A stretch of 63,874 nucleotides of DNA, taken from an uncultured Ignavibacteria bacterium. GTDB lineage: Bacteria; Bacteroidota; Ignavibacteria; Kapaibacteriales; Kapaibacteriaceae. Made by a program: the position numbers and the translations under genes. The stretch lies in NCBI GenBank assembly GCA_937870915.1, contig CALMZQ010000088.1, positions 1 through 63,874 on the forward strand, in the 5' to 3' direction. Positions 1-59,424 of the stretch are shown here, piece after piece (position 1 is the stretch's first letter; each line of letters opens with the position of its first letter). The notes under the pieces are model-generated. The model saw nothing but the letters and a program-made list of their open reading frames with translations. It had not been told where the DNA came from and ran no database searches.

Positions 1-27
1 CTATTCACTATTCGCTATTCACTATTC
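1..27 (-). repeat. Stop-anchored tandem array, unit GAATAGY (7 bp)
   Basis: Read on the minus strand, this is about four 7-base units (GAATAGT, GAATAGC, GAATAGT, GAATAG) running to the window edge. The first unit supplies the last sense codon GAA and the TAG stop of the glycosyltransferase gene beside it. The same unit family recurs at 24578-24605 and 25478-25568. The true length is unknown because the window ends here. Confidence 0.85.
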
Positions 28-1023
28 ATAAAACGTTTTCTCAAAAGCCCCTTGCTCGGGCTTGTTTAGGATAACGCGCCAGATCATGCCGCGGATGAAG
101 CCGGTGCCGTAGCCGATGAGTTGCACATAGGATGCTTGGACGCATCGAAGTCCGGATGTGGCAGAGTGATACCGAAGTGAGCTCTCGATAAACAGGGCAA
201 GTGTGTAGACACCTAATGGTATCAGCGTTGTCCAACCGTACGGGGCAAAGAGAGTATAGCCGAGCGCGAGCACCACGTAGAGGGTAAAGGCTGTGGGGAA
301 GAAGTGGGTGATCTTTAACGTGCCGGGGTGACGCAGCGTGATATTGATACGCGCTATGCCGCTGTTGTGGACCTGCTTGAAAAATTTCTTGAGATCTGTG
401 CGCCGTTTGTGATAGACCCATGCGTTGGGAATGAGTTGCACGTTGTATCCCATGGACATCATGCGAATACTGAACTCTACGTCTTCACCAAAACGCATGC
501 GGGCAAAACCATCGGTTGCATTGAAGACTTTGCGTGAGATCCCCATGTTAAATGAACGTGGGTGGAACACACCGCCAACACGTACCTTGCCACCACGAAT
601 ACCACCGGTGGTAAGGAACGACGTCATCGCGTAGCTGATGGCCTTTTGCACGGGAGTGAAACGTTCGTGTTCTCTGTCTGGCCCTCCAAACGCGTCAAGC
701 CCCTTCTCAGATACTTCAGCATCAATAGAGGAAAGGTAGTGAGGGGGCACGGTGCAATCGGAATCGATGAACAGGAAGTAGTCGCCCGAAGCTCGTCTAC
801 AACCGTAATTCCGGGATGGTCCGGGACCACTATTATCCTTGAAGAAATATCGGATGGTAAGCCGTCCACCATATCGGGCACACACAGTCTCTGAGCTTAC
901 CGTGGAGCCGTCCTCAACGATGATGATCTCAAAGTCCGTGAACGACTGAAGAGTAAGGCTCTCGAGGAGCTCGTTAAGTTCGTCCGGCCTGTTAAAGACG
1001 GCCACAATGATGGAGTACTTCAT
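22..1023 (-). CDS. Family 2 glycosyltransferase, membrane-anchored
   Basis: This 333-residue protein has a GT-A fold start: a hydrophobic strand and nucleotide-binding stretch at residues 1-41 (VEDGST near 36-41), the DxD-type metal site IDSDC at 86-90, and the acceptor-side GED motif at 179-181. Two hydrophobic segments at about 238-285 should anchor it in the inner membrane. GT2 enzymes of this layout move a sugar from a nucleotide sugar onto surface glycans or lipid carriers; the substrate cannot be read. The ATG at 1023 lies about 11 bases after a TATCTTTG promoter box shared divergently with the next gene. The gene ends inside a tandem repeat. Confidence 0.9.
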   Translation of the reverse strand: MKYSIIVAVFNRPDELNELLESLTLQSFTDFEIIIVEDGSTVSSETVCARYGGRLTIRYFFKDNSGPGPSRNYGCRRASGDYFLFIDSDCTVPPHYLSSIDAEVSEKGLDAFGGPDREHERFTPVQKAISYAMTSFLTTGGIRGGKVRVGGVFHPRSFNMGISRKVFNATDGFARMRFGEDVEFSIRMMSMGYNVQLIPNAWVYHKRRTDLKKFFKQVHNSGIARINITLRHPGTLKITHFFPTAFTLYVVLALGYTLFAPYGWTTLIPLGVYTLALFIESSLRYHSATSGLRCVQASYVQLIGYGTGFIRGMIWRVILNKPEQGAFEKTFYE

Positions 1024-12360: not shown

Positions 12361-14420
12361 ACGAACAGTCCCAACCATACGAACCCATTCGATGGAAGTC
12401 GGGCCTGCTTACGTTGGTCTTCTCCATAGCCTTCATGATCATTCTCGGACGACTCTTCTGGGTGCAGGTTGTAGAAGGTGCTCGGTATAGAGACCTTGCA
12501 AAGAAGCAATATGAAAGTAGAGTCCCGTTGCGTGCAGAGCGCGGTAGATTACTCGACCGCGAAATGCGAGACCTGGCAACGATGATGAAGACCACGTCGT
12601 TTGCTGCAGACCCAAGCATGATAGAACATCCGGAGATGTGTGCTCAGCTTCTTTCAGCCGCCGCCGGTGAATCTGCACAGAGTTATCTGGATCGCCTCCG
12701 CTCAACACAGGCACGGTTTGTATGGCTTGCTCGGGGTGTGAACACCGTGATGTTCCCTGTCCTCGATACGATCCGTGATAGGGGGCTTATCCGGGTTAAG
12801 GAACCAAAACGGTCCTTCACTCATGGACCGCTAGCCGCGCAGGTGATAGGAACAACAGATGTAGATAACAATGGGTTGACGGGACTTGAACTCCATTACG
12901 ATGGCATTCTCCGTGGACAGAGCGGTTTTGTTGTTATGCAACGCGATGGTAGGGGAAGACTCCGTCCGGGCGTAGATCCCGAACGCGAAGCACCACGAGA
13001 CGGGCAAGGACTTCAACTCACGATTGATCTCGAAATGCAACGTGTTGCCGAGCAAGAACTCGCACGAGGTGTTAGAGAAAGCGGCGCTCTCTCCGGAACA
13101 GTGATAGCCATCGAGCCATCAACAGGTGAGATCCTCGCAATGGCTTCGTATCCAAGTTTCGATCCCAACAGATTAGATAAGGCCAATGACGATGCCATTC
13201 GTATTCGCGCCGTAACGGACCAATATGAGCCCGGGTCAACGATGAAGGCCATAACCGCTGCTGCCCTGTTGGAGGAACGGAAACTTGCTCCAACAGACAA
13301 GGTGGATGGAGGAAATGGAGTTCTGATGATGTCAGGGGGCGTGCAGATCAAGGACGATCACCCCGTGGGTCAAACCACGTTTGCCGGTGCAATGGAGCAA
13401 TCTTCCAATGTTGTTTTCGCCACGTTGTCGCGCAAGCTTGATGACCGCGTCTACTACAAATACGTGCGCGACTTCGGCTTCGGCATTCCTAGTGGCATAG
13501 ACCTTCCGGGTGAAGTGCGAGGCAGACTCAAACGTCCAAATGAGTTTGATCAATCAACAAAACAATACATGTCGTTCGGCTACGAGGTAAGTGCTACGGC
13601 ACTCCAGGTTCTTGACGCATATGCAGCTATTGCCAACGGAGGTGTGCTGATGCAGCCACGCGTTGTAAAGGCCTTGTTGGCCAGTGATGGTAAGGTCACA
13701 TCAGAGATACCACCGCAACAGATACGTCGAGTTGTTAGCACAGAGACTGCTCGCATCCTCACGGAAATGCTTGTTGGTGTTGTTGAACGTGGCACAGGTC
13801 AAGAAGCACGAATTACCGGTGTGCGAATCGCAGGAAAAACAGGCACAGCCCAACAGTTAACGCAGGGCGAATACGGCCGAAAGAACTATACCGCTTCCTT
13901 TGTTGGCTATTACCCGGCAGACAAACCTCGTGTGGCCATGATCGTGATGTTGGACAGACCTACAACTAGCATCTATGGCGGAACAACTGCGGCACCAATC
14001 TTTCGGCGTATCGTACAGAAGACCATGACGATGCTGAAGTTGGACGCAGCTACCCAACAACGGATTGCCGCGTCAGCCGAGGCAGACACAGTTATCGTTC
14101 CTGACGTGCGGGGCCTTGCTCTCCAAACGGCAGACAGCGTACTCCACAGACTCGGCCTTCGCGCAGAGATGTCCACCGGCAATGGCCTTATCATGCGCCA
14201 AACCCCCGCCAACGGCTCCAGACTCGAGCGCGGCTCAGTAGTAAAGGTTGAAGGCCAAGCACAACAAGGGGCTCACCAGCACCCCGATGTTTTCGGATTC
14301 CCCCTCAGACGCGCAGTTACCGTCCTCCATGCCGCCGGCTACGATGTTCGGATCAAAGGATCCGGGCGAGTCGTTCGCCAACAATGGGAAGGCGAAACCT
14401 GTATCGTCTACGCAGAGTAA
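12357..14420 (+). CDS. ftsI: Class B penicillin-binding protein with PASTA domains (FtsI-like)
   Basis: This septal or elongation transpeptidase cross-links peptidoglycan in the periplasm. The 687 residues comprise an N-terminal membrane anchor (about 20-40), a dimerisation domain, then the transpeptidase with S294-T-M-K297, an SSN motif (EQSSNVVFA), and KTGT at 494-497. Two PASTA-like repeats follow from about 580 (VPDVRGL, PDVFGF). The start is GTG overlapping the ftsL stop. The TAA stop forms part of the first unit of a tandem repeat. Confidence 0.92.
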   Translation: MNEQSQPYEPIRWKSGLLTLVFSIAFMIILGRLFWVQVVEGARYRDLAKKQYESRVPLRAERGRLLDREMRDLATMMKTTSFAADPSMIEHPEMCAQLLSAAAGESAQSYLDRLRSTQARFVWLARGVNTVMFPVLDTIRDRGLIRVKEPKRSFTHGPLAAQVIGTTDVDNNGLTGLELHYDGILRGQSGFVVMQRDGRGRLRPGVDPEREAPRDGQGLQLTIDLEMQRVAEQELARGVRESGALSGTVIAIEPSTGEILAMASYPSFDPNRLDKANDDAIRIRAVTDQYEPGSTMKAITAAALLEERKLAPTDKVDGGNGVLMMSGGVQIKDDHPVGQTTFAGAMEQSSNVVFATLSRKLDDRVYYKYVRDFGFGIPSGIDLPGEVRGRLKRPNEFDQSTKQYMSFGYEVSATALQVLDAYAAIANGGVLMQPRVVKALLASDGKVTSEIPPQQIRRVVSTETARILTEMLVGVVERGTGQEARITGVRIAGKTGTAQQLTQGEYGRKNYTASFVGYYPADKPRVAMIVMLDRPTTSIYGGTTAAPIFRRIVQKTMTMLKLDAATQQRIAASAEADTVIVPDVRGLALQTADSVLHRLGLRAEMSTGNGLIMRQTPANGSRLERGSVVKVEGQAQQGAHQHPDVFGFPLRRAVTVLHAAGYDVRIKGSGRVVRQQWEGETCIVYAE

Positions 14421-14458
14421 CTGGTAACTCGTAACTCGTAACTAGTAACTAGTAACTT
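14417..14458 (+). repeat. Stop-anchored tandem array, unit GTAACTN (7 bp, 6 units)
   Basis: There are six consecutive 7-base units (GTAACTG, GTAACTC twice, GTAACTA twice, GTAACTT). The TAA of the first unit is the ftsI stop codon. Since 7 is not divisible by 3, the array places TAA in all three frames. Confidence 0.9.
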
Positions 14459-14493: not shown

Positions 14494-16245
14494 ATGCAAA
14501 AACACCTCATCATTCTGTTCTTGATTCTGAGCGCTGTTCCGGCCTATGTAGAGGCGCAGCCGGTTCGGGTCATCAATGAGTCCATGAACTTCCCGCCGAT
14601 GCCTATAGGTACGCGGAAGGAGCTAGAGGTGCGGATTGGCGGGCTTGTGGGCACCGGTGGTTTTGTCGTTGTGGATTCGTGCCGCTCGCCGTACACGATG
14701 AAGACCAAACCCCAGGATCTGATGATATCCGACGGCGAGATTCGGATACGAGTGGAGTTTGCTCCCGTAGATCCAAAAGATTACCGTGACGAGATCATTC
14801 TCGAAAGACGTCCGGCTGTTCCGCCCCCTAATGACCAGATCCGGCTCCGTTTGTTCGGGACAGCATTCCGCCTTGTTCGTGATGAGAAAATTGAATTCGG
14901 CAACGTCCTGATTGGTGATTCTAATCGTAGGCTTGTGCTTATCCGCAAAGATCTGGCTGATGAATCCCGATGGGAGATCGATGGATCATTGGAAGAGCCT
15001 TTCCAACTCCTCAACCGCAATCCTGCTGTAATAGGTGACACACTGGCCTTTGCCTTCTCCTTCCAGCCAGAAACCGTAGGGCGGAGTATTGATTCTCTTG
15101 GTTTGGTTCGGATTCATAGGCAGACAGGGAAGCCCCTTGACACCATCGTTGTCTACTTTATGGGCAATGGCGTTCGGATGCCCGCAGAGAAGGCTACAGT
15201 ATTTACCAACATGATGGTGGGGCAGGTACGCAAGGACACAATTGCCGTTGAACTTGGTACACAGGTGTATTCGCAGGAGTTTTCGTACTCCATTGAGCCA
15301 ATAGAAGTACAGAGTACTGTTACTACCGCCCTCCTCCTCACAAAGAACCCTACAAAGGAGAACCGGATATTGGTAGAGGTTACGTGTGCGCCAACAACGT
15401 ATGGCGACGGGCGATATGGCTTTGTCCTGCGCAGAACACTGCTCGGAAGAGATGCCATAGACTCTACGAATATTGTTGTGAATCTCACGATGGTACCCCG
15501 TCCGGTAACGCTTTCAATGGGTTTTGTAGCAGATACGTTCTACCATCGTATTGGGGACACTGCTACGTTTGATGTAGTGGTTACCACAGATGACCCCATT
15601 GATGTGCCCCTTTCTTTGCAGTCCTTTGTATGCGACGTTACCTACAACCCCACGATGTTCGTTGCGCTTTTGCAAAGTGGCCAACAACGTGATGTGATTG
15701 ATGATAGGTCCATCCTCAAAGTGGGTAAGACGGGGCTTAATGGTTCCGTGCTTATCGGAAGCAGCGGCCAGGTGATAGGTCAGGCCCGTGGTGTAATTGT
15801 CCTGGGTGATGCGGACCGCACGCCCCTTACCATCACCGAAGCTTCCATCACAACGAACAATGGAACTAGGTCCGTAGAGCCACATTCATCCGTGGTACTC
15901 GTTACCAATGTCTGGAGATATCAGGACGGACGACCGCGATATGTGAACCCCATGCAGGGGACGCTTGTGGCTGATGTGGACCCTAATCCGGTTGTTTCGC
16001 AATCGACTCTGAGGATCGCCAATGTCCCGGCACAGAATGGGCGACTGGATGTAATCGATGCACTTGGACAGGTTCGTGTAGACCTCACAACACAACTCCG
16101 GGCAGGTAGCCGAGTGTTCTCCATTAGCTCATCTGGGGCGGCAGATATCGCCCTGCCGGCAGGCTCGTATTATGCCCGATTAGTGGTTGAAGGAGCTTCC
16201 GGAAACACGATCAATAGTGTTGTTCGCTTATTCGTGGTGCAGTAG
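14494..16245 (+). CDS. Secreted protein with T9SS-type sorting domain
   Basis: This 583-residue protein has a signal peptide (1-21, ending EAQ). The body is all-beta, with a repeated pattern of about 100 residues (FGNVLIGDSNRR, MGNGVRM) like ASPM/SPD2/Hydin or choice-of-anchor beta domains. The last 85 residues (DPNPVVSQSTLRI, IDALGQV, LPAGSYYARL) match the T9SS type A sorting domain pattern, so it should be exported and attached to the cell surface. No enzymatic motif is seen. Confidence 0.8.
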   Translation: MQKHLIILFLILSAVPAYVEAQPVRVINESMNFPPMPIGTRKELEVRIGGLVGTGGFVVVDSCRSPYTMKTKPQDLMISDGEIRIRVEFAPVDPKDYRDEIILERRPAVPPPNDQIRLRLFGTAFRLVRDEKIEFGNVLIGDSNRRLVLIRKDLADESRWEIDGSLEEPFQLLNRNPAVIGDTLAFAFSFQPETVGRSIDSLGLVRIHRQTGKPLDTIVVYFMGNGVRMPAEKATVFTNMMVGQVRKDTIAVELGTQVYSQEFSYSIEPIEVQSTVTTALLLTKNPTKENRILVEVTCAPTTYGDGRYGFVLRRTLLGRDAIDSTNIVVNLTMVPRPVTLSMGFVADTFYHRIGDTATFDVVVTTDDPIDVPLSLQSFVCDVTYNPTMFVALLQSGQQRDVIDDRSILKVGKTGLNGSVLIGSSGQVIGQARGVIVLGDADRTPLTITEASITTNNGTRSVEPHSSVVLVTNVWRYQDGRPRYVNPMQGTLVADVDPNPVVSQSTLRIANVPAQNGRLDVIDALGQVRVDLTTQLRAGSRVFSISSSGAADIALPAGSYYARLVVEGASGNTINSVVRLFVVQ

Positions 16246-21355: not shown

Positions 21356-22489
21356 ATGAGAAGCTTTTGGGAACATGAATCGTGGCTGACGTATGACGTA
21401 GTTATCATCGGCGGCGGTATCATCGGAGTTAACACAGCAATTGAATGTGCAACGCGCCACCCTGAGTGGCGCGTTCTGCTTTTAGAGCGCAACCTGCTGC
21501 CTACAGGTGCATCAACGCGCAATGCTGGCTTTGCCTGTATGGGCTCGTTAAGCGAGATCGCGTCTGACATCGACCTCATGGGCAGCGATGCCGCGCGCAA
21601 CCTCGTGCAGCAACGTCTTGATGGACTCACACTCCTACGAGAACGGTGCTCTGGTTATGATGTTGGGTATACCGAGGATGGTGGCTCGGAGATCTTCCTC
21701 GAAGATCATCCGTCGCTTTCTCGTCTTGAGGAAGTGAATGATCTGCTTGCTCCAATCTTTGGTTGTGCTGCGTTCACACAGCGTAATGACCTAATAGCAG
21801 CCTATGGTCTGTCACCTTCGGTGACTACACTGATGTTTACACCCTTCGAAGGCACACTCCATTCCGGCAAACTGATCGCTGCCTTGTGGGATTTGGCCTC
21901 TCGTGTCGGCGTGCACATTCGAACAGGCGCAGAGGTTGTGACCATGCGGGAAACACATACGTCTGTAGAGCTTAACGTCCGAACCGCATATCAGGACATC
22001 TTGGTCACTGCCGGTCAGACAGTTGTTGCCACCAACGCAATGATTCCGAGTCTCGTTCCCGCTACAACGCTACCTGAGATCCTCCCCGGAAGAGGTCAGG
22101 TAGTCATCACGAAGCCCCTTACCAACCTAAAACTCAAGGGATCCTTCCATGCCGATGAGGGCTATTACTACTTCCGATCGGTTGGAAACAGGGTGTTGTT
22201 AGGGGGCGGGCGGAACCTGGACTTTGAAGGGGAACGCACTACTTCACACCAGACAACGGAGCATATTCAGTTGGTGTTGGAGAACATGCTTCGCTCTGTG
22301 ATCCTGCCAAACCATCCGGAACTGGAGATCGAGCACCGCTGGGCGGGCACGATGGCGTTTACGGCAACAAAACAACCGTATGTTGGGAACGTCTCACCAC
22401 GTTGCGTTGTGGCATTCGGGTGCAATGGAATGGGTGTGGCGATTTCGTCGAATGTGGCCGTGCAATGTGCTAATGTGCTAATGTGCTAG
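21356..22489 (+). CDS. FAD-dependent oxidoreductase (DAO family)
   Basis: This 377-residue protein has the dinucleotide-binding motif VVIIGGGIIGVNTAIE at about 15-30, the conserved STRNAGFAC segment near 50-58, and the C-terminal HRWAGTMAFTATKQPYVG and FGCNGMGVA motifs of D-amino acid or glycine oxidase-like enzymes. The substrate is unknown. The last codons, encoding CANVLMC, and the TAG stop are made of TGTGCTAA repeat units, so the array has altered the C-terminus. Confidence 0.88.
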   Translation: MRSFWEHESWLTYDVVIIGGGIIGVNTAIECATRHPEWRVLLLERNLLPTGASTRNAGFACMGSLSEIASDIDLMGSDAARNLVQQRLDGLTLLRERCSGYDVGYTEDGGSEIFLEDHPSLSRLEEVNDLLAPIFGCAAFTQRNDLIAAYGLSPSVTTLMFTPFEGTLHSGKLIAALWDLASRVGVHIRTGAEVVTMRETHTSVELNVRTAYQDILVTAGQTVVATNAMIPSLVPATTLPEILPGRGQVVITKPLTNLKLKGSFHADEGYYYFRSVGNRVLLGGGRNLDFEGERTTSHQTTEHIQLVLENMLRSVILPNHPELEIEHRWAGTMAFTATKQPYVGNVSPRCVVAFGCNGMGVAISSNVAVQCANVLMC

Positions 22490-22513
22490 TGTGCTAATGT
22501 GTTAATGTGCTAA
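22466..22513 (+). repeat. Tandem array, unit TGTGCTAA (8 bp, 6 units) spanning a stop codon
   Basis: There are six perfectly phased 8-base units with one A-to-G and one C-to-T change. The first two and a half encode the C-terminal residues of the oxidoreductase; its stop is the TAG created by the A-to-G change in unit 3 (22487-22489). Confidence 0.92.
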
Positions 22514-22525
22514 TAAGAGTGTGAA

Positions 22526-23635: not shown

Positions 23636-24579
23636 GCCCCCTACTCAAACTCATACTCGGTTGTATCGTGCTAGTATGCACACTTGTTGGTGCACCACCA
23701 CTCATGGCACAGCAGGGTATGTCAGACGATGCACTAGAGCAGTATGAGTTTGATACTGAGTTAGACTACTACGTGCGTCTTGTGAACGGCGATGTGGTTT
23801 CGGGTCCAGTAAGCGAAACAGCATCTGATTCCGTTGGCGCCTATATCCGCATCAAGACTCCGTTTGGTAGAGCAAAGATCTATGCGGCAGAAATCTCGTG
23901 GATCGGACTGCTCGAAGAATCGTATCGAGCGCGCAACAGAGGTTTGATCCTACCAACAGCCGAGGCTATCAAGAGCGACCACTATCTCGCGCTCGTAGAA
24001 GGTGTGATGCCAACACTAGGCGTAGGTATTGCAGACTTCATGAGCATCACCGGCGGTCGAACAGTTGTACCCGGCATTGGCTGGCAGAACCAATTCAGCA
24101 CCGTGAACATCAAGGGCACTGTGTATGAGGGTAAGAACGGATTAGTGGAAGGGGGCAAGCAGATCTATGCCCTTGGCGTAAACGGCTCGTGGATCAACGA
24201 TGTGAACTTCATGGGTCACATCTACGGCGTTGCCACATTCACCGGCAAACGCACGCGCATCAGCACAATGATTCATGCCAAAGTAGCCGGCAAGGAATCC
24301 TACGTTGTGAGTGGCGGCACTCTTTTTGATCCCTTTACGTTCCCCTATGCCAACGGTACCATCGGCGTTGCCTTTATGATGGACGTGCGATTCCCTGAGA
24401 TGCATGACCTGCATTTCTTGGGCGAGTTGTGGAACGCAGATCTCACACGGCCGTCTCAAAGCGCGTTATTCCTTGGACTCCGCCAGTGCAACACTGCTGT
24501 AACGTTCGACTTCGGCCTTACGCTCCTGCCCGGTCCAAACGTAGCACCGGCGTTTGCTGTGTCGTGGACACCGTGGTGA
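23632..24579 (+). CDS. Secreted or outer-membrane hypothetical protein
   Basis: This 315-residue protein starts at the ATG overlapping the rlmN stop. The signal peptide covers 1-27 (ending LMAQ). The mature part begins with an SM-like small beta region (YYVRLVNGDVVSGPV, PFGRAKIYAAEISWI) and continues with barrel-like strands ending FAVSWTPW. A homologous pattern occurs in uncharacterised proteins of this phylum; the function is unknown. The TGA stop lies at the edge of a GAACAGC array. Confidence 0.65.
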   Translation: MSPLLKLILGCIVLVCTLVGAPPLMAQQGMSDDALEQYEFDTELDYYVRLVNGDVVSGPVSETASDSVGAYIRIKTPFGRAKIYAAEISWIGLLEESYRARNRGLILPTAEAIKSDHYLALVEGVMPTLGVGIADFMSITGGRTVVPGIGWQNQFSTVNIKGTVYEGKNGLVEGGKQIYALGVNGSWINDVNFMGHIYGVATFTGKRTRISTMIHAKVAGKESYVVSGGTLFDPFTFPYANGTIGVAFMMDVRFPEMHDLHFLGELWNADLTRPSQSALFLGLRQCNTAVTFDFGLTLLPGPNVAPAFAVSWTPW

Positions 24580-24605
24580 ACAGCGAACAGAGAACAGCGA
24601 ACAGC
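24578..24605 (+). repeat. Stop-anchored tandem array, unit GAACAGN (7 bp, 4 units)
   Basis: There are four 7-base units (GAACAGC, GAACAGA, GAACAGC twice) followed by a decayed unit GAATGAT. The first unit overlaps the TGA stop at 24577-24579. It belongs to the same unit family as 1-27 and 25478-25568. Confidence 0.85.
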
Positions 24606-24642
24606 GAATGATGTTGAAGCCCACGACGAGGTTGTCGGACAT

Positions 24643-25463: not shown

Positions 25464-25490
25464 ATGACGAAAGTCATGAATAGCGAATAG
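25464..25490 (+). other. 8-codon open frame ending in a repeat unit
   Basis: A G-rich possible ribosome site (GGGAGGGGGG) precedes ATG and seven more codons (MTKVMNSE); the TAG stop belongs to the second unit of the array at 25478. It may be a remnant of a deleted gene whose stop seeded the array, or chance. Confidence 0.25.
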
Positions 25491-25568
25491 CGAATAGCGA
25501 ATAGAGAATAGAGAATAGAGAATAGCGAATAGAGAACAGCGAACAGCGAACAGTGAATAGAGAAGAGC
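25478..25568 (+). repeat. Long tandem array, unit GAAYAGN (7 bp, 13 units)
   Basis: There are thirteen 7-base units: mostly GAATAGC/GAATAGA, then three GAACAGN, one GAATAGA and one GAAGAGC. It lies between a lipoprotein gene and a small membrane protein gene, and is the longest member of the family also present at 1-27 and 24578-24605. Confidence 0.92.
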
Positions 25569-25603
25569 GAAACTCTTTGAGGGGGAGAAACGTTAGGGCG
25601 CAC

Positions 25604-25837
25604 ATGAATACTACATTTGCCCGAATACTTTACGGCGGATTCCTGCTGTTCACAGTGTACCACGTTTTTGTAGCGCATGATTTGATGACGGCTGCATCGA
25701 ATCTGGGTATCGCGCTGATCTTTGATCCGTTTGATCAGAAGGTTCGTTGGAATGACCGCCCGGTATGGCAGCGCGGTTGGCTCATCGTACACCTGATCGT
25801 TATGTTCAGCCTCTTCGGTTATGCAATGGTAGTCTAG
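25604..25837 (+). CDS. Small membrane protein
   Basis: This is a 77-residue protein from the ATG at 25604; an upstream in-frame ATG at 25553 would run through repeat sequence and is unlikely. It has two hydrophobic segments (about 6-28 and 55-75) separated by a charged loop (FDPFDQKVRWNDRPVWQRG). No family is recognised. Its TAG stop starts an AGTTACTC array. Confidence 0.6.
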   Translation: MNTTFARILYGGFLLFTVYHVFVAHDLMTAASNLGIALIFDPFDQKVRWNDRPVWQRGWLIVHLIVMFSLFGYAMVV

Positions 25838-25890
25838 TTACTCAGTTACTCAGTTACTAGTTACTCAGTTACTCAGTTACATAGTTACTC
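25836..25890 (+). repeat. Stop-anchored tandem array, unit AGTTACTC (8 bp, 7 units)
   Basis: There are seven units, one shortened to 7 bases and one altered to AGTTACAT. The first contains the last two bases of the TAG stop of the small membrane protein. Its complement (GAGTAACT) is nearly the unit at 14417. Confidence 0.85.
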
Positions 25891-25950
25891 GAACTCCGTA
25901 TCTCTGTATCTCCGTAACTCCGTATCTCCGTATCTCTGTATCTCCGTAAC
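25891..25950 (-). repeat. Tandem array, unit TCCGTATC/TCCGTAAC (8 bp)
   Basis: There are seven or so 8-base units. On the minus strand they begin at the TAG stop of the CoA-binding protein gene (25950-25952), so two different stop-anchored arrays from convergent genes meet back to back. Confidence 0.85.
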
Positions 25951-26375
25951 TAAACACGTACGTATTGCTGAATGACATAGATACACGTATCCTCGATATA
26001 CGTGATGCCTGCTGCGGCACATTTGACAGCGCCATGTTTGCTTGTGATTCCTTGTTGAAGCCAGATGCACGAAACGTCTCCTTGTTGTGTTTTGCGCGTG
26101 ATGGCTTGATCAATAATGGCATCTGTGTCTTCAGAAGGACGGAAAACATTAACGATATCAATAGTAAAGGGGACATCCAGTAGAGTGTCCACCACGGGAA
26201 CGGTGGCTACTGCAGGTGTGGCGTGGGGGTTAACACCGATGATGTTGTACCCGGCACTAGCCATGAACAGCGGTATATCGTGAGCAGACTTGCCGGGATT
26301 GCGAGAAAGACCTACAACAGCAATATTCTTGGCTGCTTTGAGAGTTTCCACTGCGAGAGTGAGTTCTGCATTCAT
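25950..26375 (-). CDS. CoA-binding protein (YccU-like)
   Basis: This 141-residue single Rossmann domain of the CoA_binding_2 family has AVVGLSRNPGKSAHDIPLFM at about 18-38, YNIIGVNP, the FRPSED motif and SCIWLQQGI with a late conserved cysteine (EDTCIYV). The family binds CoA or a related nucleotide; its role is not established. It lies 5 bases after a GNAT acetyltransferase gene, which suggests an operon. Confidence 0.88.
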   Translation of the reverse strand: MNAELTLAVETLKAAKNIAVVGLSRNPGKSAHDIPLFMASAGYNIIGVNPHATPAVATVPVVDTLLDVPFTIDIVNVFRPSEDTDAIIDQAITRKTQQGDVSCIWLQQGITSKHGAVKCAAAGITYIEDTCIYVIQQYVRV

Positions 26376-26979: not shown

Positions 26980-27834
26980 ATGACTTCACGATCCTGGCTG
27001 GCGGAACTTCGCAGGGCAGTTAATGCACAGGAGAGCAACCTGCTCGATACGGTTGTTATCATACTCATCCTCATCTCAACGGTAGTTGTTGGATTAGAGA
27101 CTAGTCCGCAGATCACGGACGCACTGCCCGGATTTTTCGCCTGGCTCGATGTCTTCATCGTTATCGCTTTTGGCTTGGAGATCGGCCTCAAAATGGCGTT
27201 TCGTTGGCCGCGTCCGTGGGACTACTTCAAGGATGCCTGGCACATCTTTGACGCGGTGATCTTTGCACTCACCCTACTTCCCTATTTCGTGCTGGACGAT
27301 CAGGGGGCGGTTGGGTCCGCGCTGGCCCTACGAGCCCTCAGGCTAGCGCGTTCGTTCAGAGCCCTCCGCGTGTTACGTCTCGCATCCGAGCTCAAGGGTG
27401 TGCGTGTTGTTATCGAGACGTTGTTACGCTCCATCCCGCAACTCACGGTGGTGGCTATCCTACTTGGCTGTATTGTTTACACCTATGCCGTGATGGGCTA
27501 TAATCTCTTCCACACAAATGACCCGGAAAACTTTGGTTCGCTTGGGTTGAGTCTCTTGGCCATGTGTCAGTGTGCAGTTGGGGATTTTGCCGACATCATG
27601 CACACACAAATGAACGGTCCGGAGGGATTCCCCATCCTGTCTCCGCTGTTCTTCCTTTCATTTGTCCTCATTGCCGGACTCACCATTCTGAACTTCTTTG
27701 TGGGTACCATCCTCTCCGAATTGGAGTCGGTTCGGGAAGAAGAATCCGAGCAAACCACAGACATTCAGCAGATGCAGGAGCAACTCCGCCAAATGCAAGA
27801 AACGCTGGTTAGGATCGAAAAAAGGGCGTTGTAA
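26980..27834 (+). CDS. Voltage-gated-type ion channel subunit
   Basis: This is a 284-residue six-helix Ion_trans protein. S1 to S3 are at about 20-100, and the S4 voltage sensor RALRLARSFRALRVLRLAS carries regularly spaced arginines. S5, a pore loop and S6 (ILNFFVGTILSELESV) follow, then a C-terminal coiled coil rich in Gln/Glu. The pore loop reads LLAMCQCAVGDFADIM, unlike the TLESW filter of bacterial sodium channels or TVGYG of potassium channels, so ion selectivity is unclear. The start was chosen for its spacing from a GGGGGG stretch; ATG at 26974 and TTG at 26950 are alternatives. Confidence 0.85.
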   Translation: MTSRSWLAELRRAVNAQESNLLDTVVIILILISTVVVGLETSPQITDALPGFFAWLDVFIVIAFGLEIGLKMAFRWPRPWDYFKDAWHIFDAVIFALTLLPYFVLDDQGAVGSALALRALRLARSFRALRVLRLASELKGVRVVIETLLRSIPQLTVVAILLGCIVYTYAVMGYNLFHTNDPENFGSLGLSLLAMCQCAVGDFADIMHTQMNGPEGFPILSPLFFLSFVLIAGLTILNFFVGTILSELESVREEESEQTTDIQQMQEQLRQMQETLVRIEKRAL

Positions 27835-27912: not shown

Positions 27913-29049
27913 ATGTCAATGATAAGACAACGGATATTGAAGCCCCCTACCGGCAGCTTTTTCTTGCTTGGTCCACGAGGAACAGGGAAGTCCGTATGGG
28001 TACGAAGCACGTTTCCGGAGGCAATGTTCATTGACCTGCTCGACCCGGAAGTGTATCGTCTGTATGCGGCCAGACCTGAGCGGCTAAGAGAGAGAATAGC
28101 AGCGGAGACGCTGATACAAACAGTTGTGATCGATGAGATCCAGAAGCTTCCGGTTTTGCTGGAGGTAGTCCACCAGGTGATCGCGTCTGGCTCACTGATC
28201 AGATTTGTCCTAACCGGATCGAGTGCAAGAAAGCTGAGAAGAGGAAATGTGAATCTGCTGGGAGGAAGAGCATCACAGGTTTCGATGCACCCGTATCTGG
28301 CAATAGAGATGGGAGATAGTTTTTCTCTTGCGAGTGCTCTGGAGACAGGCCTTGTTCCCATCGTTGTTGAGTCTGCGTCACCAAAAGAGACACTCCGCGC
28401 CTACACATCGTTGTACATCAAGGAAGAAGTGTTTGCAGAAGGCCTCGTTCGAAATACAGAACACTTCTCTCGCTTTTTGGAGGCGATCAGCTTCTCACAT
28501 GGTGAAGTGTTGACGATCTCGAATGTTGCGAGCGAGTGTGGTGTAAGCAGAAAGACCGTTGAGAACTACATACAGATCATGGAAGATCTCATGTTGGCAC
28601 ATCGTGTACCGGTGTTTACCCGACATGCGAAGCGTGAGCTGGTAGGGCATCCCAAATTCTACTTCTTTGATACCGGCGTGTTTCGGTCACTGCGTCCAGT
28701 AGGTCCATTGGATGATCGATCGGCGATAGGTGGACATGCTCTTGAAGGGCTTGTTGCCCAACACCTCCGCGCCGCATGCGACTATGCAGCAGATGGTAGA
28801 CAGCTCTATTATTGGCGCACTCGTACTGGAATTGAGATTGACTTTGTTATGTACGGACCAGATACTCTTGAAGCATACGAAGTAAAAAGCACCGACGTGG
28901 TACGTGATGCAGATTTGAAAGCCCTACGAGCCTTTGTTGAGGAATACCCCGGTACCGCAGCAACATTACTCTACCGCGGTAATGAACGCCTTGTTCGACA
29001 TGGGATAACGATCGTTCCGATAGAGCAATGGATGAAGAGCGTTGTTTAG
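27913..29049 (+). CDS. AAA_14/DUF4143 ATP-binding protein (copy 1)
   Basis: This 378-residue protein has the P-loop LGPRGTGKS at 19-27, Walker B VVIDEI near 72, and sensor 1 FVLTGSSA. A winged-helix-like segment follows (TISNVASECGVSRKTVENYIQIMEDLMLA, read in parts). The C-terminal DUF4143 has a PD-(D/E)xK-like core: Glu in LEGLVAQ, Asp in EIDFV and the E-x-K of YEVKS. The family is common in this phylum and its function is unknown. Tandem dyads just upstream suggest autoregulation through the winged helix. It overlaps a convergent gene end by 4 bases. Confidence 0.88.
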   Translation: MSMIRQRILKPPTGSFFLLGPRGTGKSVWVRSTFPEAMFIDLLDPEVYRLYAARPERLRERIAAETLIQTVVIDEIQKLPVLLEVVHQVIASGSLIRFVLTGSSARKLRRGNVNLLGGRASQVSMHPYLAIEMGDSFSLASALETGLVPIVVESASPKETLRAYTSLYIKEEVFAEGLVRNTEHFSRFLEAISFSHGEVLTISNVASECGVSRKTVENYIQIMEDLMLAHRVPVFTRHAKRELVGHPKFYFFDTGVFRSLRPVGPLDDRSAIGGHALEGLVAQHLRAACDYAADGRQLYYWRTRTGIEIDFVMYGPDTLEAYEVKSTDVVRDADLKALRAFVEEYPGTAATLLYRGNERLVRHGITIVPIEQWMKSVV

Positions 29050-48208: not shown

Positions 48209-49417
48209 TCAGCTACCGTCAAAATCAGCCTCCGGCCACAGCCGAGGGAATAGTATGCTGAGTGCGGAAAATGGAAGAGCAAAGCGTACCGGACCCCTGT
48301 GGGTCGTTGCGGTCAGTAGACCGTAGTCTAGGAGAGAAGCCAAGATCCGCCGTGACGTTCTAGTTGGAAGTCCGATCATGCTGATAAAGCGAGCTCGTTC
48401 AACTTCACCAGTATACATAGAGAACAAAAGGGGCTCGAGTGCATCGATCCGAATCACAGACCGTTCGGACCCCATCTGCCATGGTCGTGCTTCGAGTGAA
48501 CGTAGGAGCAGGCTAAGGTTATCGCGAAGGTTGGCCAGCTGAAGCAAACGGTCAACAAATGCAATCTGATCTAGACTCGTATCGAGCACATAATTCGCCC
48601 ATTGAACGAGCCCCTTCTGAGAAAGGTTACCACGACCATCGAGATCATTCATTCGGGGTTCATCTGCACTTGCAAGTCTGGCATAATACAGTCGGACGTC
48701 ACGGGCAAAGCCTCTGACAGGCGTCCAGAGTCCATTCGTGAGGCCAAGCGTGTGAAGAAGAGAATGCATGTGAAGTCGAGCTACACGACCATTCCCATCT
48801 CGGAATGGATGGATCCACGCCAACCTGTGGTGGGAGCAAAGAGCAGCAATCAGTGACCGCTCGGAACCACTCTGTTGCCTGTACATCTCAGACCACCGAT
48901 TGAGCTGATCCCTGATCTCTTGAGAATCAGGTGATATATGAATGCCGACGTAAACAGTGACATCCCTAAAGGCTCCAGGTTCAATGTGAGCGCCGTCTGT
49001 AGTGACCCTATCTTCTGGTTCGAGCCTAGCGTAGAGTGCGCCGTGGATTTTCTGGACAATACTTGGGCTATAGAGATCCGAGATCGCAAGCCCCCTACTT
49101 TCCTCTTCAAGCATGCGCTCTACATCCATGTGAGCAATGGCCAAACGCTGAAGTTGTGCTACTCTCTTATCGCCCGAATAGTCGCTCTTCATTGCGCGCT
49201 CGATATCGTATGGCGTAGTGTGCTGACCCTCGATCCGGTTCGTGTAGTACGAATTCATCGCTCGCAGAAGCAATGCCAACGATTCCTTTAACCCTGAGGG
49301 AACTATACCAGCTAATCCATGTGACTTGACGATCACATCGGATGCTTTTTCTAGAAGAGGGCTGATCGAACCATCTTCTGGGAAATACGGAGTTGGGAAC
49401 ACTATCTGGACACTCAT
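48209..49417 (-). CDS. Fic-family protein with N-terminal inhibitory motif
   Basis: This 402-residue protein has the Fic core motif HPFRDGNGRVAR at 203-214, complete for AMP transfer. An N-terminal inhibitory helix carries the T/S-x3-E-G pattern (TNRIEG, Glu63), so the enzyme would be self-inhibited (class II). A C-terminal winged-helix region (about 335-395, GLPTRTSRRILASLLDYGLL) may bind DNA. The target is unknown. Direct repeats upstream suggest autoregulation. Confidence 0.92.
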   Translation of the reverse strand: MSVQIVFPTPYFPEDGSISPLLEKASDVIVKSHGLAGIVPSGLKESLALLLRAMNSYYTNRIEGQHTTPYDIERAMKSDYSGDKRVAQLQRLAIAHMDVERMLEEESRGLAISDLYSPSIVQKIHGALYARLEPEDRVTTDGAHIEPGAFRDVTVYVGIHISPDSQEIRDQLNRWSEMYRQQSGSERSLIAALCSHHRLAWIHPFRDGNGRVARLHMHSLLHTLGLTNGLWTPVRGFARDVRLYYARLASADEPRMNDLDGRGNLSQKGLVQWANYVLDTSLDQIAFVDRLLQLANLRDNLSLLLRSLEARPWQMGSERSVIRIDALEPLLFSMYTGEVERARFISMIGLPTRTSRRILASLLDYGLLTATTHRGPVRFALPFSALSILFPRLWPEADFDGS

Positions 49418-51993: not shown

Positions 51994-53118
51994 ATGACCT
52001 ATCGCTACGGGATCGCCATAGCCATTGCAGTTTGTAGCCTTGTAATCGGCTGCTCTACCACAGACCCAGCAACAGAACAGACCGTTCGTGTGCGGAAGAA
52101 CGTATTGGCATTGAGTGCACAGGAGAAAGCAGACTTTGTATCTGCACTGAAGAAGTTGAAGGCAACACCTTCGCCCTATGATGCATCAATGAACTACTAC
52201 GACCAGTTTGTGTACTGGCACCTGAAGGCCTTCTATTGCACATCAGGCTCGGGACACGGTCTCGAAGGAATGTATCCTGCCCACATGAACCCGGCCTTCC
52301 TACCGTGGCACCGCGTCTACCTTGATCTATTCGAACAGGCGTTAAAAGAGGTGTCTGGCAAGGACATCGCCATTCCTTATTGGGACTGGATAGATCCTAG
52401 TAGTGTAGGCACCATTTTTACGCCTGACTTTATGGGGGGAGACGGAGATCCAACACAGGGGTATGCCGTTACCACAGGCCCCTTTCAAAAGGACTCGTTT
52501 GTAGTGCGAATCTTCGATACAGGTGATATCGACTCCCTCTTTGATGATGCCGATAACAATCCTAACCCCGTGCCATATTTGGTACGGGGCTTCACAATCT
52601 TCAAGGATAGCACGGTGGTGCTTCCATCGGCTGCAGAGATCGAGAATACTCTCGGTATAGCCACATATGACTCCGCGCCGTGGGACAGCTCAGTAGACAC
52701 AGCAATCAGTTTCCGCAACTCCCTTGAAGGATGGCGCGGTACGGCGGGTGAAGAGTGTGATGATGGTATCATGGACGTGATCCCCACGGCCCTTCGTCGA
52801 AGTCAGATGCATAACGTGGTCCACATTTGGGTAGGGGGCGTGATACCTTACAACGGCGGTTTGATTGCGGGAAACATGACGCAGTCTACGTCTCCGAACG
52901 ACCCATGCTTCTGGATCCACCATGCGAACATCGACAGACTCTGGTCGGCCTGGATGAAACGTCACGGTAAGACCTATGCGCCCACAACCGGTGGGCCACA
53001 TGGCTCAAATCTCAATGATGTGATGGAGCCATTCTCCTTCAAATCAAACGGAAAGAACACGCCGGCTTCGGTACTTGATGAGTCGGTACTGAACTATCGA
53101 TATGATGTTGTTCCTTGA
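51994..53118 (+). CDS. Tyrosinase-family type 3 copper lipoprotein
   Basis: This 374-residue protein has a lipoprotein signal (lipobox VIGC at about 15-19). CuA histidines are in FVYWHLKAFYC, GHGLEG and FLPWHRVYLDLFEQ; CuB histidines are in MHNVVHIWVGG and DPCFWIHHANIDRLW. These are the full six ligands of tyrosinases and polyphenol oxidases, which oxidise phenols to quinones. The start could be GTG at 51988. It is divergent from a multicopper oxidase; together they suggest phenol oxidation at the surface. Confidence 0.92.
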   Translation: MTYRYGIAIAIAVCSLVIGCSTTDPATEQTVRVRKNVLALSAQEKADFVSALKKLKATPSPYDASMNYYDQFVYWHLKAFYCTSGSGHGLEGMYPAHMNPAFLPWHRVYLDLFEQALKEVSGKDIAIPYWDWIDPSSVGTIFTPDFMGGDGDPTQGYAVTTGPFQKDSFVVRIFDTGDIDSLFDDADNNPNPVPYLVRGFTIFKDSTVVLPSAAEIENTLGIATYDSAPWDSSVDTAISFRNSLEGWRGTAGEECDDGIMDVIPTALRRSQMHNVVHIWVGGVIPYNGGLIAGNMTQSTSPNDPCFWIHHANIDRLWSAWMKRHGKTYAPTTGGPHGSNLNDVMEPFSFKSNGKNTPASVLDESVLNYRYDVVP

Positions 53119-53162: not shown

Positions 53163-53180
53163 TTGTACATGGACGACTAA

Positions 53181-54353
53181 GTGTTTGAGCGTAAAGAGGT
53201 TGATATTCTTCGGAAAAGGCTCAATGAGCCTAGAAGATTCATCCATGCCATCACCGGACCGCGGCAAATCGGAAAGTCAACCGTGGTCCGACAGGCCCTT
53301 ATTGGGGTACAGGTTCCTGTGATATACGAGATTGCAGATGGAGCACTCACAAACCCGACGGAATGGCTAGAGCAAGTGTGGAGATCTGCTCGAGAGGCGT
53401 ACGATACAGGGCCGGTTATTCTTGTCATTGATGAGGTTCAAAAGATTCCTCAATGGAGTGAATGCGTTAAGAAGTTCTGGGATCAAGACACCTTTGAAGG
53501 CCGAGACATCCGGGTGATCCTCACGGGTTCGTCAACAACATTCATTCATAGGGGGCTTACCGAAAGTCTCGCCGGACGATTCGAACGCATTCGCATGATG
53601 CCATGGGCTTTCTCGGAGATGGAACGCGCCTTCTCATGGGACCTCGATACGTATCTGATCTATGGGGGCTATCCCGGGCCGGCAGACATTGTACACGATG
53701 CAGATAGATGGACGGAGTATGTGCGCTCATCGATCATCGAGCCCATTATCAGCCGCGATGTGCTGCAAATGAACCGCATCGACAAGCCATACCTCCTGAG
53801 ACAACTCGTGGAGATCGCCTCTCGCATGACAACTCGAGAAGTAACGTATACGAAGCTCATTGGAACCCTGCACGATGCTGGAAACACTACCACCATTGCC
53901 CACTACCTTTCACTCTTGGAAGATGCCGGGCTCTTGTGTGGAATCTCCAAGTTCTCTGGCAACATGGTCAGGCAAAGACGATCCAGTCCCAAGCTCCTCG
54001 CCTTTGCTAATGCCGTACCAACGGCAATGGGCGTTGGGTGGTCACGTTCAATGAACGAAACAATGCGAGGTCAGTGCGTTGAGAGCGCAGTAGGAACACA
54101 TCTGCGATGTATCGTTGAAGGGTCGAGCTCTGAATTGCAATGGTGGAGGCAAGGAGATGACGAAGTTGACTTTGTACTTAAACGCGGAGACAGAATACTT
54201 GGTATCGAAGTGAAAAGCGGAAACACTCATCACCTGCGCGGACTTAAAGCCTTTCAAGCAACATTTCCTAACGCAAGGACTGTTGTTGTTGGGAAGGGTG
54301 GTATGCCTGTTGCAGAGCTGTTACGATCAACCATTCATGACCTAATGCCATGA
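53181..54353 (+). CDS. AAA_14/DUF4143 ATP-binding protein (copy 3)
   Basis: This 390-residue protein starts at GTG. The P-loop TGPRQIGKST is at about 25-34, Walker B is ILVIDEVQK, and sensor 1 is ILTGSSTTF. A winged-helix-like section follows (YTKLIGTLHDAGNTTTIAHYLSLLEDAGLL, in parts). The C-terminal nuclease-like core has Glu in CVESAVGTHL, Asp in EVDFVLKR and IEVKSG. It overlaps the GyrI-like gene by ATGA. It has a different pair of upstream dyads from copies 1 and 2. Confidence 0.88.
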   Translation: MFERKEVDILRKRLNEPRRFIHAITGPRQIGKSTVVRQALIGVQVPVIYEIADGALTNPTEWLEQVWRSAREAYDTGPVILVIDEVQKIPQWSECVKKFWDQDTFEGRDIRVILTGSSTTFIHRGLTESLAGRFERIRMMPWAFSEMERAFSWDLDTYLIYGGYPGPADIVHDADRWTEYVRSSIIEPIISRDVLQMNRIDKPYLLRQLVEIASRMTTREVTYTKLIGTLHDAGNTTTIAHYLSLLEDAGLLCGISKFSGNMVRQRRSSPKLLAFANAVPTAMGVGWSRSMNETMRGQCVESAVGTHLRCIVEGSSSELQWWRQGDDEVDFVLKRGDRILGIEVKSGNTHHLRGLKAFQATFPNARTVVVGKGGMPVAELLRSTIHDLMP

Positions 54354-54817
54354 CGGCAACAATCGTTGAACTCGAAGCATTCACATTACGTGGTATTGCC
54401 CGCACATTCAAAGCAAAAACGCGACATCAGATATCCCAGTTATGGAATGAATCTGTGCCGCGTCTCTTTGCCTTACCGGGTCACAACCCACGTGCGCTTT
54501 ATGGCGCATGTATTGACATGATCGAAGGTGATGGACCCAATTGCGGTTTTGTCTACATGGTGGGAATTGCTGTGGACCCCTCAGCCCCCTCTATAGATGG
54601 GATCACAACAGTTTCTGTGCCGGCCGGACGATATGCGATGTTCACGTACGACGGCCCCATAGTCGGTTTCCCCCAGTTCATTGATACGGTGTGGAGAGAA
54701 CACTTCCCATCTACGGGGCTCATCAAACGAGATGCTCCGGACTTTGAACGATACGATGAAAGATTTAGCGCTGAGAGTGGTGGTGGAGTGGTGGACTACT
54801 ACATCCCGGTCGAGTAG
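54350..54817 (+). CDS. GyrI-like small-molecule-binding domain protein
   Basis: This 155-residue stand-alone effector-binding domain (AraC_E_bind/GyrI-like) has LRGIARTFKAKTRHQISQLWNESVPRL, then VYMVGIAVD, the VPAGRYAMFTYDGPI segment and the final DYYIPVE strand. It has no DNA-binding part. Family members bind hydrophobic cations or act as gyrase inhibitors. Coupling to an AAA/DUF4143 ATPase by an ATGA overlap is unexpected and may point to a shared role. Confidence 0.85.
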   Translation: MTATIVELEAFTLRGIARTFKAKTRHQISQLWNESVPRLFALPGHNPRALYGACIDMIEGDGPNCGFVYMVGIAVDPSAPSIDGITTVSVPAGRYAMFTYDGPIVGFPQFIDTVWREHFPSTGLIKRDAPDFERYDERFSAESGGGVVDYYIPVE

Positions 54818-57532: not shown

Positions 57533-58339
57533 ATGGAAACTCCGACAGACCTCAAAGAACTTGTTCGCACGAAATATGGCGAGATTGCCCAGCAGTCCCA
57601 CGAGCAGAATGCTTCTTCGTGTTGTGGTGCAGGGGGCTGTTCAACTGTGGACTATACCATCTTTGCCGAGGACTACACAAAGCTCAACGGATATGTAGCC
57701 GACGCGGATCTTGCGCTCGGATGCGGAGTTCCAACGGAATTCGCTCAGATCCATGAAGGTCAAACTGTAGTTGACCTTGGTTCGGGTGCCGGTAATGACG
57801 CCTTTGTGGCACGAGCAATAACGGGAAACACTGGCAAGGTGATCGGAATTGATATGACGCCGGAGATGATTGCAAAGGCTCGCGAAAACGCCGATAAACT
57901 CGGCTTCAATAACGTTGAATTCCGACACGGTGATATCGAAAACATACCGATCGCAGCAAACAGCGCTGACGTCATTATCAGTAACTGCGTTCTCAATTTG
58001 GTTCCTGATAAACAACGTGCCTTCACAGAGATGTTTCGCATCCTAAAACCGGGTGGACACTTCAGTGTAAGCGACATTGTTCTCCGCGGTGAACTACCGG
58101 AACCCCTTCGCAAAGACGCAGAAATGTACGCTGGGTGCGTTTCGGGAGCCATACAAGAAAGCGAATACCTCCACCTACTTCAAGAAGCTGGTTTTAGCAA
58201 CATTACTGTACAGAAGGCCCGCCCCGTTCTACTGCCGGACGACATTCTCTCGGCGTATCTAACACCGGACGAGATCGCCAACATGAATGCAAGGGGTCAG
58301 GGCATCATTAGCGTTACGGTATATGGGGAGAAGAAATGA
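57533..58339 (+). CDS. arsM: Arsenite S-adenosylmethionine methyltransferase
   Basis: This 268-residue protein methylates As(III). It has the SAM motif VVDLGSGAGNDAFVA at 79-93, VIGIDMTPEMI at 103-113, and the three conserved arsenic-binding cysteines of the family at C64 (ALGCG), C152 (SNCVLNL) and C202 (AGCVSG). An extra N-terminal cluster SSCCGAGGC at 28-36 is also typical. It is the last gene of the metalloid locus. The TGA stop begins an array of TGACGT-containing units. Confidence 0.94.
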   Translation: METPTDLKELVRTKYGEIAQQSHEQNASSCCGAGGCSTVDYTIFAEDYTKLNGYVADADLALGCGVPTEFAQIHEGQTVVDLGSGAGNDAFVARAITGNTGKVIGIDMTPEMIAKARENADKLGFNNVEFRHGDIENIPIAANSADVIISNCVLNLVPDKQRAFTEMFRILKPGGHFSVSDIVLRGELPEPLRKDAEMYAGCVSGAIQESEYLHLLQEAGFSNITVQKARPVLLPDDILSAYLTPDEIANMNARGQGIISVTVYGEKK

Positions 58340-58530
58340 CGTAATGACTCAATGACGTAATGACTGATATGACGTTATGACATATATGACGTTATGACTA
58401 ATATGACGTTATGACTAATGTGACGTCATGCCCGTGACCAGGTCATGTTGTCACTACGTCACTACGTCACTACGTCATTACGTCATTGAGTCATTACGTC
58501 ATTGAGTCATTTCGTCTCTTAGTCATTGCC
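58335..58530 (+). repeat. Stop-anchored array with perfect 30-bp inverted arms (unit AATGACGT/AATGACTC)
   Basis: On the plus strand it begins AATGACGTAATGACTC at the arsM stop, then ATATGACGTTATGAC units. It ends with the exact reverse complement of the opening 30 bases (CATTACGTCATTGAGTCA type). The whole 196-base stretch is built from TGAC/GTCA octamers and could form a large cruciform or hairpin. Confidence 0.85.
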
Positions 58531-58599: not shown

Positions 58600-59424
58600 A
58601 TGAAGATCCCAAAGAAAGTTTTAGATCGCCTTGGCGCAACAGTGAAAGTGTTTCAGGCTGTTGCAGTACTTCAAAAGACACGGGACGTATCCGAAGCTGA
58701 TACAGTAACGCTCGTGAAGGACATCCTCGCAGATTCATTTGGCTTTGATAAGTACCTCGAACTCACTAGTGAGCAGCAAATACGAGGAACCTATTGTGAT
58801 CTCGCAGTGAAGATCGACAACAAAATCCGCTACTTGATCGAAGTGAAGTCCGCCGGTGTTGCTTTGAATGATTCCCATCTTCGACAGGCAGTTAATTATG
58901 GCGCAAATCAGGGGATTGAGTGGGTGGTTCTTACTAATGCCATCGATTGGCGTCTGTATCGTATCAAGTTTGGTCAACCAATTGACTTTGAAGAGGTGTC
59001 GTCCTTTAATCTTACCTCTGTGAACCTTAAGAACGACGATGATCTGAACAGGATATTCTTGCTTTGTAGAGAAGGTCTGAGCTCAGATGCCATGGATGTC
59101 TTCCACCAACAAGCGCAACTTGTTAATAAGTTTACCATCGCTCAGATTCTGATGAGTGATCCTGCTGTTGCGGTAGTTCGCAAAGAACTCCGCCGCCTCT
59201 TTCCAGAGCTCAAGGTTGAACAAGAACAGATTCTTGATATCCTCGTGAATGATGTACTTAAGCGTGAGGTTGTTGAAGGGGACAAAGTGAAGGAAACCCA
59301 ACTACGCCTAAAGAAAGCACTACAAAAGATCGCAAAGCAGACTGTGGCAAAGCCCGGACAGGTACCGAGTACCACGCCATCAACAACCGCTTCGAGTGTT
59401 TCAGCAGGTGAATCTGAGGCATGA
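58600..59424 (+). CDS. Stand-alone HsdR_N-type PD-(D/E)xK nuclease
   Basis: This is a 274-residue protein from the ATG after AGAGGG (an upstream ATG at 58585 is possible). The N-terminal 125 residues match the type I restriction HsdR N-terminal nuclease: Asp67 (YCDLAV), Glu81-x-Lys83 (IEVKSAG) and Gln96 (RQAVNYGANQG). The helicase part of HsdR is absent; the rest is helical with a Thr/Ser/Pro-rich tail. It overlaps the ion-channel gene by ATGA, an unusual coupling of a nuclease with a membrane channel. Confidence 0.85.
   Translation: MKIPKKVLDRLGATVKVFQAVAVLQKTRDVSEADTVTLVKDILADSFGFDKYLELTSEQQIRGTYCDLAVKIDNKIRYLIEVKSAGVALNDSHLRQAVNYGANQGIEWVVLTNAIDWRLYRIKFGQPIDFEEVSSFNLTSVNLKNDDDLNRIFLLCREGLSSDAMDVFHQQAQLVNKFTIAQILMSDPAVAVVRKELRRLFPELKVEQEQILDILVNDVLKREVVEGDKVKETQLRLKKALQKIAKQTVAKPGQVPSTTPSTTASSVSAGESEA

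Follow-up and report, generated by a model that had tools for sequence, protein, structure and literature searches.

The window, by which we mean the whole stretch of 63,874 nucleotides that was analysed, is one contig (C88) of a Candidatus Kapaibacteria MAG from a lake bacterium, which comprises 3.32 Mb in 233 contigs. Orthologues of its gene 12435..14420 are found in MAGs of Candidatus Kapaibacterium and Ignavibacteria and share at most 85% amino acid identity with it. The window arrays of short tandem units were located by TRF and by direct reading of the sequence (Table 1), and at all eight places named in the first-pass annotation a tandem array at, or no more than 5 nt from, a stop codon is confirmed. 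Two of the ten window arrays, 25478-25571 and 58450-58527, lie away from stops. Each of the convergent genes near 25.9 kb indeed has an array of its own, one at the TAG (25836-25890) and one at the stop of the minus-strand gene (25894-25948), and the two form an outward-polar pair.

Table 1. Short tandem arrays of the window and the gene ends at which they lie.
Array	Position	Strand	Context
GAATAG-family heptamer (top strand CTATTC[AG]; CTATTCA)	1..28	-	holds TAG of minus-strand gene 22..1023 (glycosyltransferase family 2)
NGTAACT heptamer, 6 units	14416..14457	+	holds TAA 14418-14420 of 12435..14420 (PBP transpeptidase with PASTA)
GTGCTAAT octamer, 7 units	22460..22514	+	holds TAG 22487-22489 of 21356..22489 (FAD oxidoreductase)
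GAACAGC heptamer	24578..24608	+	begins on GA of TGA 24577-24579, stop of 23704..24579
GAATAG[CA] heptamer (GAATAGC x13)	25478..25571	+	exception: at no called gene's stop; 67 nt upstream of a start
AGTTACTC octamer	25836..25890	+	begins at TAG of small ORF 25553..25837
CTCCGTAT octamer (ATACGGAG reading out of the minus-strand gene)	25894..25948	-	meets stop of 25950..26375 (CoA-binding)
ATGACGTN (ATGACGT..)	58335..58430	+	holds TGA 58337-58339 of 57533..58339; left arm of inverted pair
GTCATTAC	58450..58527	-	inverted right arm, partner of 58335-58430; not at a stop
CCGTCATA (ATGACGG family)	61286..61318	-	between convergent genes 59421..61280 and 61318..62145, both stops touched

The last ~9 codons of the FAD oxidoreductase gene are encoded by the GTGCTAAT array itself, and the CCGTCATA array starts 5 nt past the TAG at 61278-61280 and touches the stop of the gene facing it. 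The small ORF 25553..25837 has a counterpart with 63% identity in a congener. The gene 57533-58339 encodes a SAM methyltransferase (Methyltransf_31), which we take to be possibly arsenite methyltransferase-like. Other repeats in the window include a palindromic 22-nt unit, ATTTACTCAATGCATTGAGTTA, that is present twice from the stop of 51994..53118 onward (53118-53164) and has the look of a tandem operator; two 32-nt copies of GCAAAATGGCATCAGAGTTGCCATAATGCATT, nearly identical and both containing an inverted repeat, in the gap from 26980..27834 to 28024..29049 (27848-27908); TGGACA every 12 nt in 3.5 copies (49474-49515), operator-like and just upstream of the minus-strand gene 48209..49417; and 2.8 copies of an 11-nt unit, CCTCGGGCTGT, which is not a 7- or 8-mer and follows the stop of 54350..54817 at a distance of 7 nt, in a gap where genes converge (54824-54854).

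Placement around genes and stop codons

Statistics are based on 1.32 Mb of the 3.32 Mb of the window genome (G000) and on 770 kb of its closest congener, G003, with about 72% nucleotide identity. Gene calls come from a simple finder based on a codon model and trained on these data; it misses some genes, and the stop positions of those called are exact. The unit lengths of 7 or 8 nt seen in the window are borne out in the 1.32 Mb, where periods of 7 and 8 nt account for 73 and 86 arrays, against 11 with a period of 9 nt, a single one of 6 nt, and none of 5 nt. None of the 98 seven- and eight-mer arrays in the first 926 kb is mainly coding. In the genome, such arrays number in the hundreds.

Contact with a stop was scored if the end of an array island overlapped it or lay within 5 nt of it, and the null was obtained by re-placing the islands at random within the same gaps (3000 placements). 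Stop-side contacts (87 of 129) clearly exceed the 51.6 ± 3.5 expected, as many being reached in none of the 3000 placements, and the excess persists without the window (82/123, null 49.2) and is replicated in G003 (38/55, null 21.3). Start-side contacts are depleted (11 of 81, null 20.7). The first-pass suspicion that the repeats are placed non-randomly relative to stops is therefore correct on the genome scale. Array density is highest in convergent gaps (2.54 per kb), intermediate in tandem gaps (1.0-1.2), and lowest in divergent gaps (0.49), values that are inflated by the choice of part of the contig sample for GTAACT repeats, a choice that does not affect where arrays lie with respect to genes. 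The stop excess, the start depletion, and the density between convergent genes all speak for a process favouring repeats at gene ends, as had been proposed, but simple local seeding is insufficient, as one finds the same units again at dozens of loci that are unrelated. An assembly artefact or mere chance seems hardly credible as a source of the pattern: although the MAG is split into 233 contigs and some of these end in arrays, the independent MAG G003 replicates the pattern and shares orthologous islands, and 131 pattern matches compare with 0 in the reversed control.

Arrays overlap ORFs typically by 2-5 nt and often take over the stop codon. TAG is the stop in 73 of 126 cases at arrays (58%) and in 290 of 1379 elsewhere (21%), an excess that matches the TAG contained in outward GTAAC and GAATAG units; at outward GTAAC arrays the stop is TAG in 25 of 29 cases, and at outward ATGAC arrays it is TGA in 10 of 13. 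The stop triplet agrees with that of G003 at 11 of 24 ends where only the window genome has an array, compared with 180 of 273 array-free ends. Together, the TAG excess and the lower agreement of stop triplets indicate that the array often supplies the stop of the gene. Protein ends at arrays are mostly unchanged and slightly more divergent than array-free ends. Of 33 orthologue pairs in which the stop lies at an array, about half show zero unaligned C-terminal residues on either side, and in the comparison with G003 the median is 2 unaligned residues at arrays versus 0 without arrays (p 0.006).

The first-pass annotation raised the idea of backup termination, in which arrays would be retained because they supply stops in all frames after the gene. 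Stop-overlapping arrays do carry three-frame stops more often on the sense (69/94) than on the antisense strand (53/94), and single GAATAG and ATGAC arrays at stops are mostly in their stop-bearing orientation. However, this overlap class is pre-selected for stop content, and in the unselected class 0-10 nt past the stop, sense (29/44) and antisense (28/44) strands provide three-frame stops equally. Furthermore, single GTAACT and TAGCAC arrays at stops show no preferred orientation, and several units, among them GAACAGC and GAGTTAC, lack a stop in any frame. The backup-stop reading is thus largely refuted and retains very little probability.

Repeat families and orthologous gene ends

Units differ between loci, as had been noted, within the window only; genome-wide they can be grouped into about six dispersed families, in which a conserved core is combined with a variable linker and which occur on both strands, at many loci, and in two species. 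These families are GTAACT+N, GAAYAG+N, ATGACG+NN (with the 7-mer form ATGACTA/ATGACGA), TAGCAC+A+Y, and the GTTAC/CGTAT octamers. In GTAACT units the core is ~93-100% constant per position and the linker is free, with base counts of A80 C37 G21 T6 in the window genome and A94 C90 G37 T4 in G003. Adjacent linkers are identical with a frequency of 0.459, versus 0.460 after shuffling within arrays, and identity at lag 2 is slightly raised. In the flanks tested, arrays share no element beyond a few dispersed palindromes. Other dispersed palindromes are GCGATAGCATGCTATCGC in G003 (C40) and TCGGGCTTTAGCCCGA in the window genome.

Array families turn over between congeners. GTAACT arrays exist in G000, G001, and G003 and are weakly represented in G006 and G012, the latter a member of another genus, and GAAYAG arrays are almost confined to G000. 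The reversed control word GAYAAG forms arrays in G001, G005, G009, and G012. Short stretches (13.5-34 kb each) of G002, G004, G006, G007, and G010 contain no arrays.

At individual gene ends, relatives display a range of states. At the 14417 site, 15 relatives are without an array and mostly possess a single TGTAAC a few bases past the stop, with TTCTA ~18 nt further on. The last unit of the NGTAACT array retains this TGTAAC-TTCTA spacing, which suggests that the array may have grown out of an existing motif. The TGTAAC ~18 nt before TTCTA (14421-14493) possibly forms an ECF-type promoter of 14494..16245. We considered whether the GTAAC array had arisen by amplification of a common promoter's -35 element and rejected this, since TGTAAC-N17..19-TTCTA is not enriched genome-wide. 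At the 22460 site, G003, G007, and G010 have no array, and arrays built from other units (AAGTACTG, GGTACTG, AATTACTG) are present in G001, G005, and G009 and extend into the last codons. At the 25836 site, G003 holds about two units. The 58335 array replaces the C-terminal tail of the methyltransferase (CxPGxGCC or similar), which is conserved in seven relatives.

Downstream of the methyltransferase gene, an HSDR_N-like gene and a gene for a Castor/Pollux-like channel (RCK/TrkA_N) occupy 58600-61280, separating genes that are direct neighbours in G003, and ATGAC-family arrays flank both ends of this two-gene block. In G003 (C35), the gap orthologous to the one with the 24578 array (L106 9037-9761) has GC-rich GGGGCGG repeats in its place, and the same gap appears by eye to hold a Y1-type transposase with an MPDHLHGIVW-like motif.

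Syntenic gaps of the window genome and G003 carry arrays in both genomes in 6 cases, in the window genome only in 11, in G003 only in 2, and in neither in 148. An array-bearing gene end therefore tends to keep an array, with changes in copy number and sometimes in the family. In orthologous islands of G003 both the families and their order are preserved, while copy numbers differ, and this comparison, made between species, renders the change of unit number by slippage, as suggested earlier, plausible. We also asked about arrays as synteny breakpoints and discarded the idea, adjacency being conserved in 17 of 20 cases with arrays and in 150 of 165 without, i.e., with no excess of breaks.

Strand order of neighbouring arrays

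Neighbouring arrays less than 200 bp apart follow a strict order, with outward-left preceding outward-right in 36 pairs and the reverse in 0, in addition to direct pairs numbering 4 and 1; the outward labels were set per family after part of the data had been viewed, at the cost of five binary choices. A label-free polarity based on G-C skew gives 28 versus 1. It is the G-richer strand that points away from the genes, and the 3' ends of the two strands are directed toward one another over the gap. The skew order is identical for the arrays that consist of other units in G001, G005, and G009. Among the 36 outward-polar pairs, 23 are inverted repeats of the same family, and 13 combine different families and are unable to fold into a hairpin over their length. 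A strand-asymmetric step is required to account for the strand rule.

Selection for RNA structure could be thought to produce such pairs, if they serve as 3' hairpins that protect mRNA ends or terminate transcription bidirectionally. Same-family pairs are the larger group, the inverted window pair (58335-58530) has a folding energy of -90 kcal/mol (z -10), array density peaks between convergent genes, and some long gaps contain hairpins followed by T runs. In contrast, 117 of 231 arrays have no partner within 250 bp, the 13 mixed pairs are unable to pair along their length, and long gaps often already have a terminator-like hairpin of their own between the arms. We consider this explanation unlikely, though deserving of some weight, and a hairpin role of same-family inverted pairs may be a secondary function.

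The handedness could also result from strand-polar addition, whereby a templated enzyme would add repeats to the 3' ends of broken DNA, which would then be rejoined head to head as in telomere fusions. This would accommodate that the 36:0 handedness holds for mixed families too, that the G-richer strand has its 3' end toward the gap centre, and that linker order is random within arrays. Nevertheless, RVT_1 is missing from 10 of the 11 congeners, including the array-rich G003 and G001, and occurs in the window genome alone (C129, L186), Ku is encoded in 0 of 11 genomes, and at some loci terminator-like sequence is conserved between the arms, so that not all arms are fused ends. Such addition is accordingly given a very small probability, and telomere-like addition by reverse transcriptase and end joining by Ku were both dropped as candidates. 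By eye, the gene downstream of the RVT_1 gene is similar to HsdR of type I restriction systems.

Dispersal by a mobile element or by a REP-associated (Y1_Tnp) transposase might account for families that recur genome-wide, the more so as Y1_Tnp genes are present in 10 of 11 congeners and dispersed palindromes exist. However, the flanks share nothing beyond a few such palindromes, Y1_Tnp is as common in the array-poor G002, G004, and G007 as in array-rich genomes, and units vary in number and linker and lack fixed ends, which makes this explanation very unlikely as well. Repair genes were likewise rejected as correlates, MutS being found in 10 of 11 genomes and SbcD giving weak sub-cut-off matches that do not follow the arrays. 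Across the eleven genomes, none of RVT_1, Ku, Y1 transposase, MutS, or SbcD tracks the arrays.

Origin of the arrays and related repeats

The explanation that we favour, with a probability of about 0.58, is that of dispersed intergenic 7/8-nt repeats driven by slippage, bounded by coding constraint, and growing in a strand-asymmetric manner. The window arrays would be local copies of the approximately six dispersed intergenic families. Units would be gained and lost, probably by replication or repair slippage together with recombination, and would spread into new intergenic gaps by a route that seems to require no conserved flanking element. Selection would purge arrays reaching into promoters, ribosome-binding sites, or coding sequence, and the stop codon would consequently be the point at which growth is free up to the gene. 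Since there are three stop triplets and each core contains TAG, TGA, or TAA, the stop can be overwritten without harm to the protein, and this may be why the boundary, with its observed takeover and mostly unchanged protein ends, is found there. Growth would be strand-asymmetric, with the G-richer strand outward from the gene, in line with the polarity observed.

Several observations do not sit easily with slippage under coding constraint. Single-unit slippage predicts that neighbouring linkers are alike, but lag-1 identity equals that of the shuffle. Local slippage leaves the recurrence of one unit at dozens of loci unexplained, and the strict strand rule does not follow from coding constraint. 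Finally, the array at the end of 57533..58339 removed a conserved protein tail, which means that the boundary is not always respected.

The arrays consist of tandem units within the 5-11 nt range, longer and commoner than by chance (0 in the reversed-pattern control), are mainly intergenic, and vary in unit number, as copy numbers at the orthologous islands of G003 attest. They are intergenic heptamer/octamer simple sequence repeats of the LSSR/STRR kind, in a new, non-quadruplex variant. For LSSRs with units of 5-11 nt, heptamers were described as most abundant, slippage was proposed, and units of a multiple of 3 were likeliest to be coding (Mrazek 2007, as far as summarised in PMC4679880). 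Different from LSSRs and from the cyanobacterial STRR heptamers, octamers are as common as heptamers here, and the stop boundary and strand rule are resolved. TAACTGA repeats of Beggiatoaceae, Cyanobacteria, and some Bacteroidetes are intergenic heptamers as well, some of which overlap upstream stops, and in the BOGUAY genome they lie mainly just upstream of starts and are nearly invariant in sequence (PMC4679880). The present units share with them the heptamer length, the intergenic location, a similar core (TAACT), and some stop overlap (PMC4679880), but they are TAACT-N-G among others, with position 7 free, and starts are depleted, so they are not TAACTGA repeats. Borg tandem repeats (PMC9879509) have longer, perfect, locus-specific units and about half of them lie inside ORFs. 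The arrays also differ from REP/BIME sequences with RAYT, for they have no conserved element around them and the Y1_Tnp distribution does not track them.

The closest resemblance is to the heptamers GGGAATC and GGGGA(C/T)T of Xanthomonas and Nostoc, which occur on the coding strand just after ORFs and on the non-coding strand just before them, form inverted pairs in convergent orientation, are rare between divergent genes, vary in length between related species, and have been studied as possible G-quadruplexes (PMC4692102). Like these (GGGANTN), the Kapaibacteria units combine constant and variable positions, are intergenic, form convergent inverted pairs, and are sparse in divergent gaps (PMC4692102), and the outward polarity is equally evident (36:0 and 28:1). 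Unlike them, 7- and 8-mers occur here in several coexisting and mixing families, with turnover among congeners, and the logos of the main unit cores display no GGG run. As the main units are devoid of G-tracts, quadruplexes cannot be the general cause of the strand layout.

A layout like that of Xanthomonas and Nostoc, built here from several unrelated non-quadruplex units, means that quadruplexes are unnecessary for it, and that it is shared points to a common growth process or constraint. This can be tested in the congeners, some of which have arrays and some none, and in which one gene end can bear differing units. It is conceivable, albeit rather improbable, that an as yet unrecognised strand-polar process is common to several bacterial phyla, in which free 3' ends at gene boundaries are extended outward by repeats of 7-8 nt; facing arrays would then invariably be arranged head to head, independent of the unit sequence.
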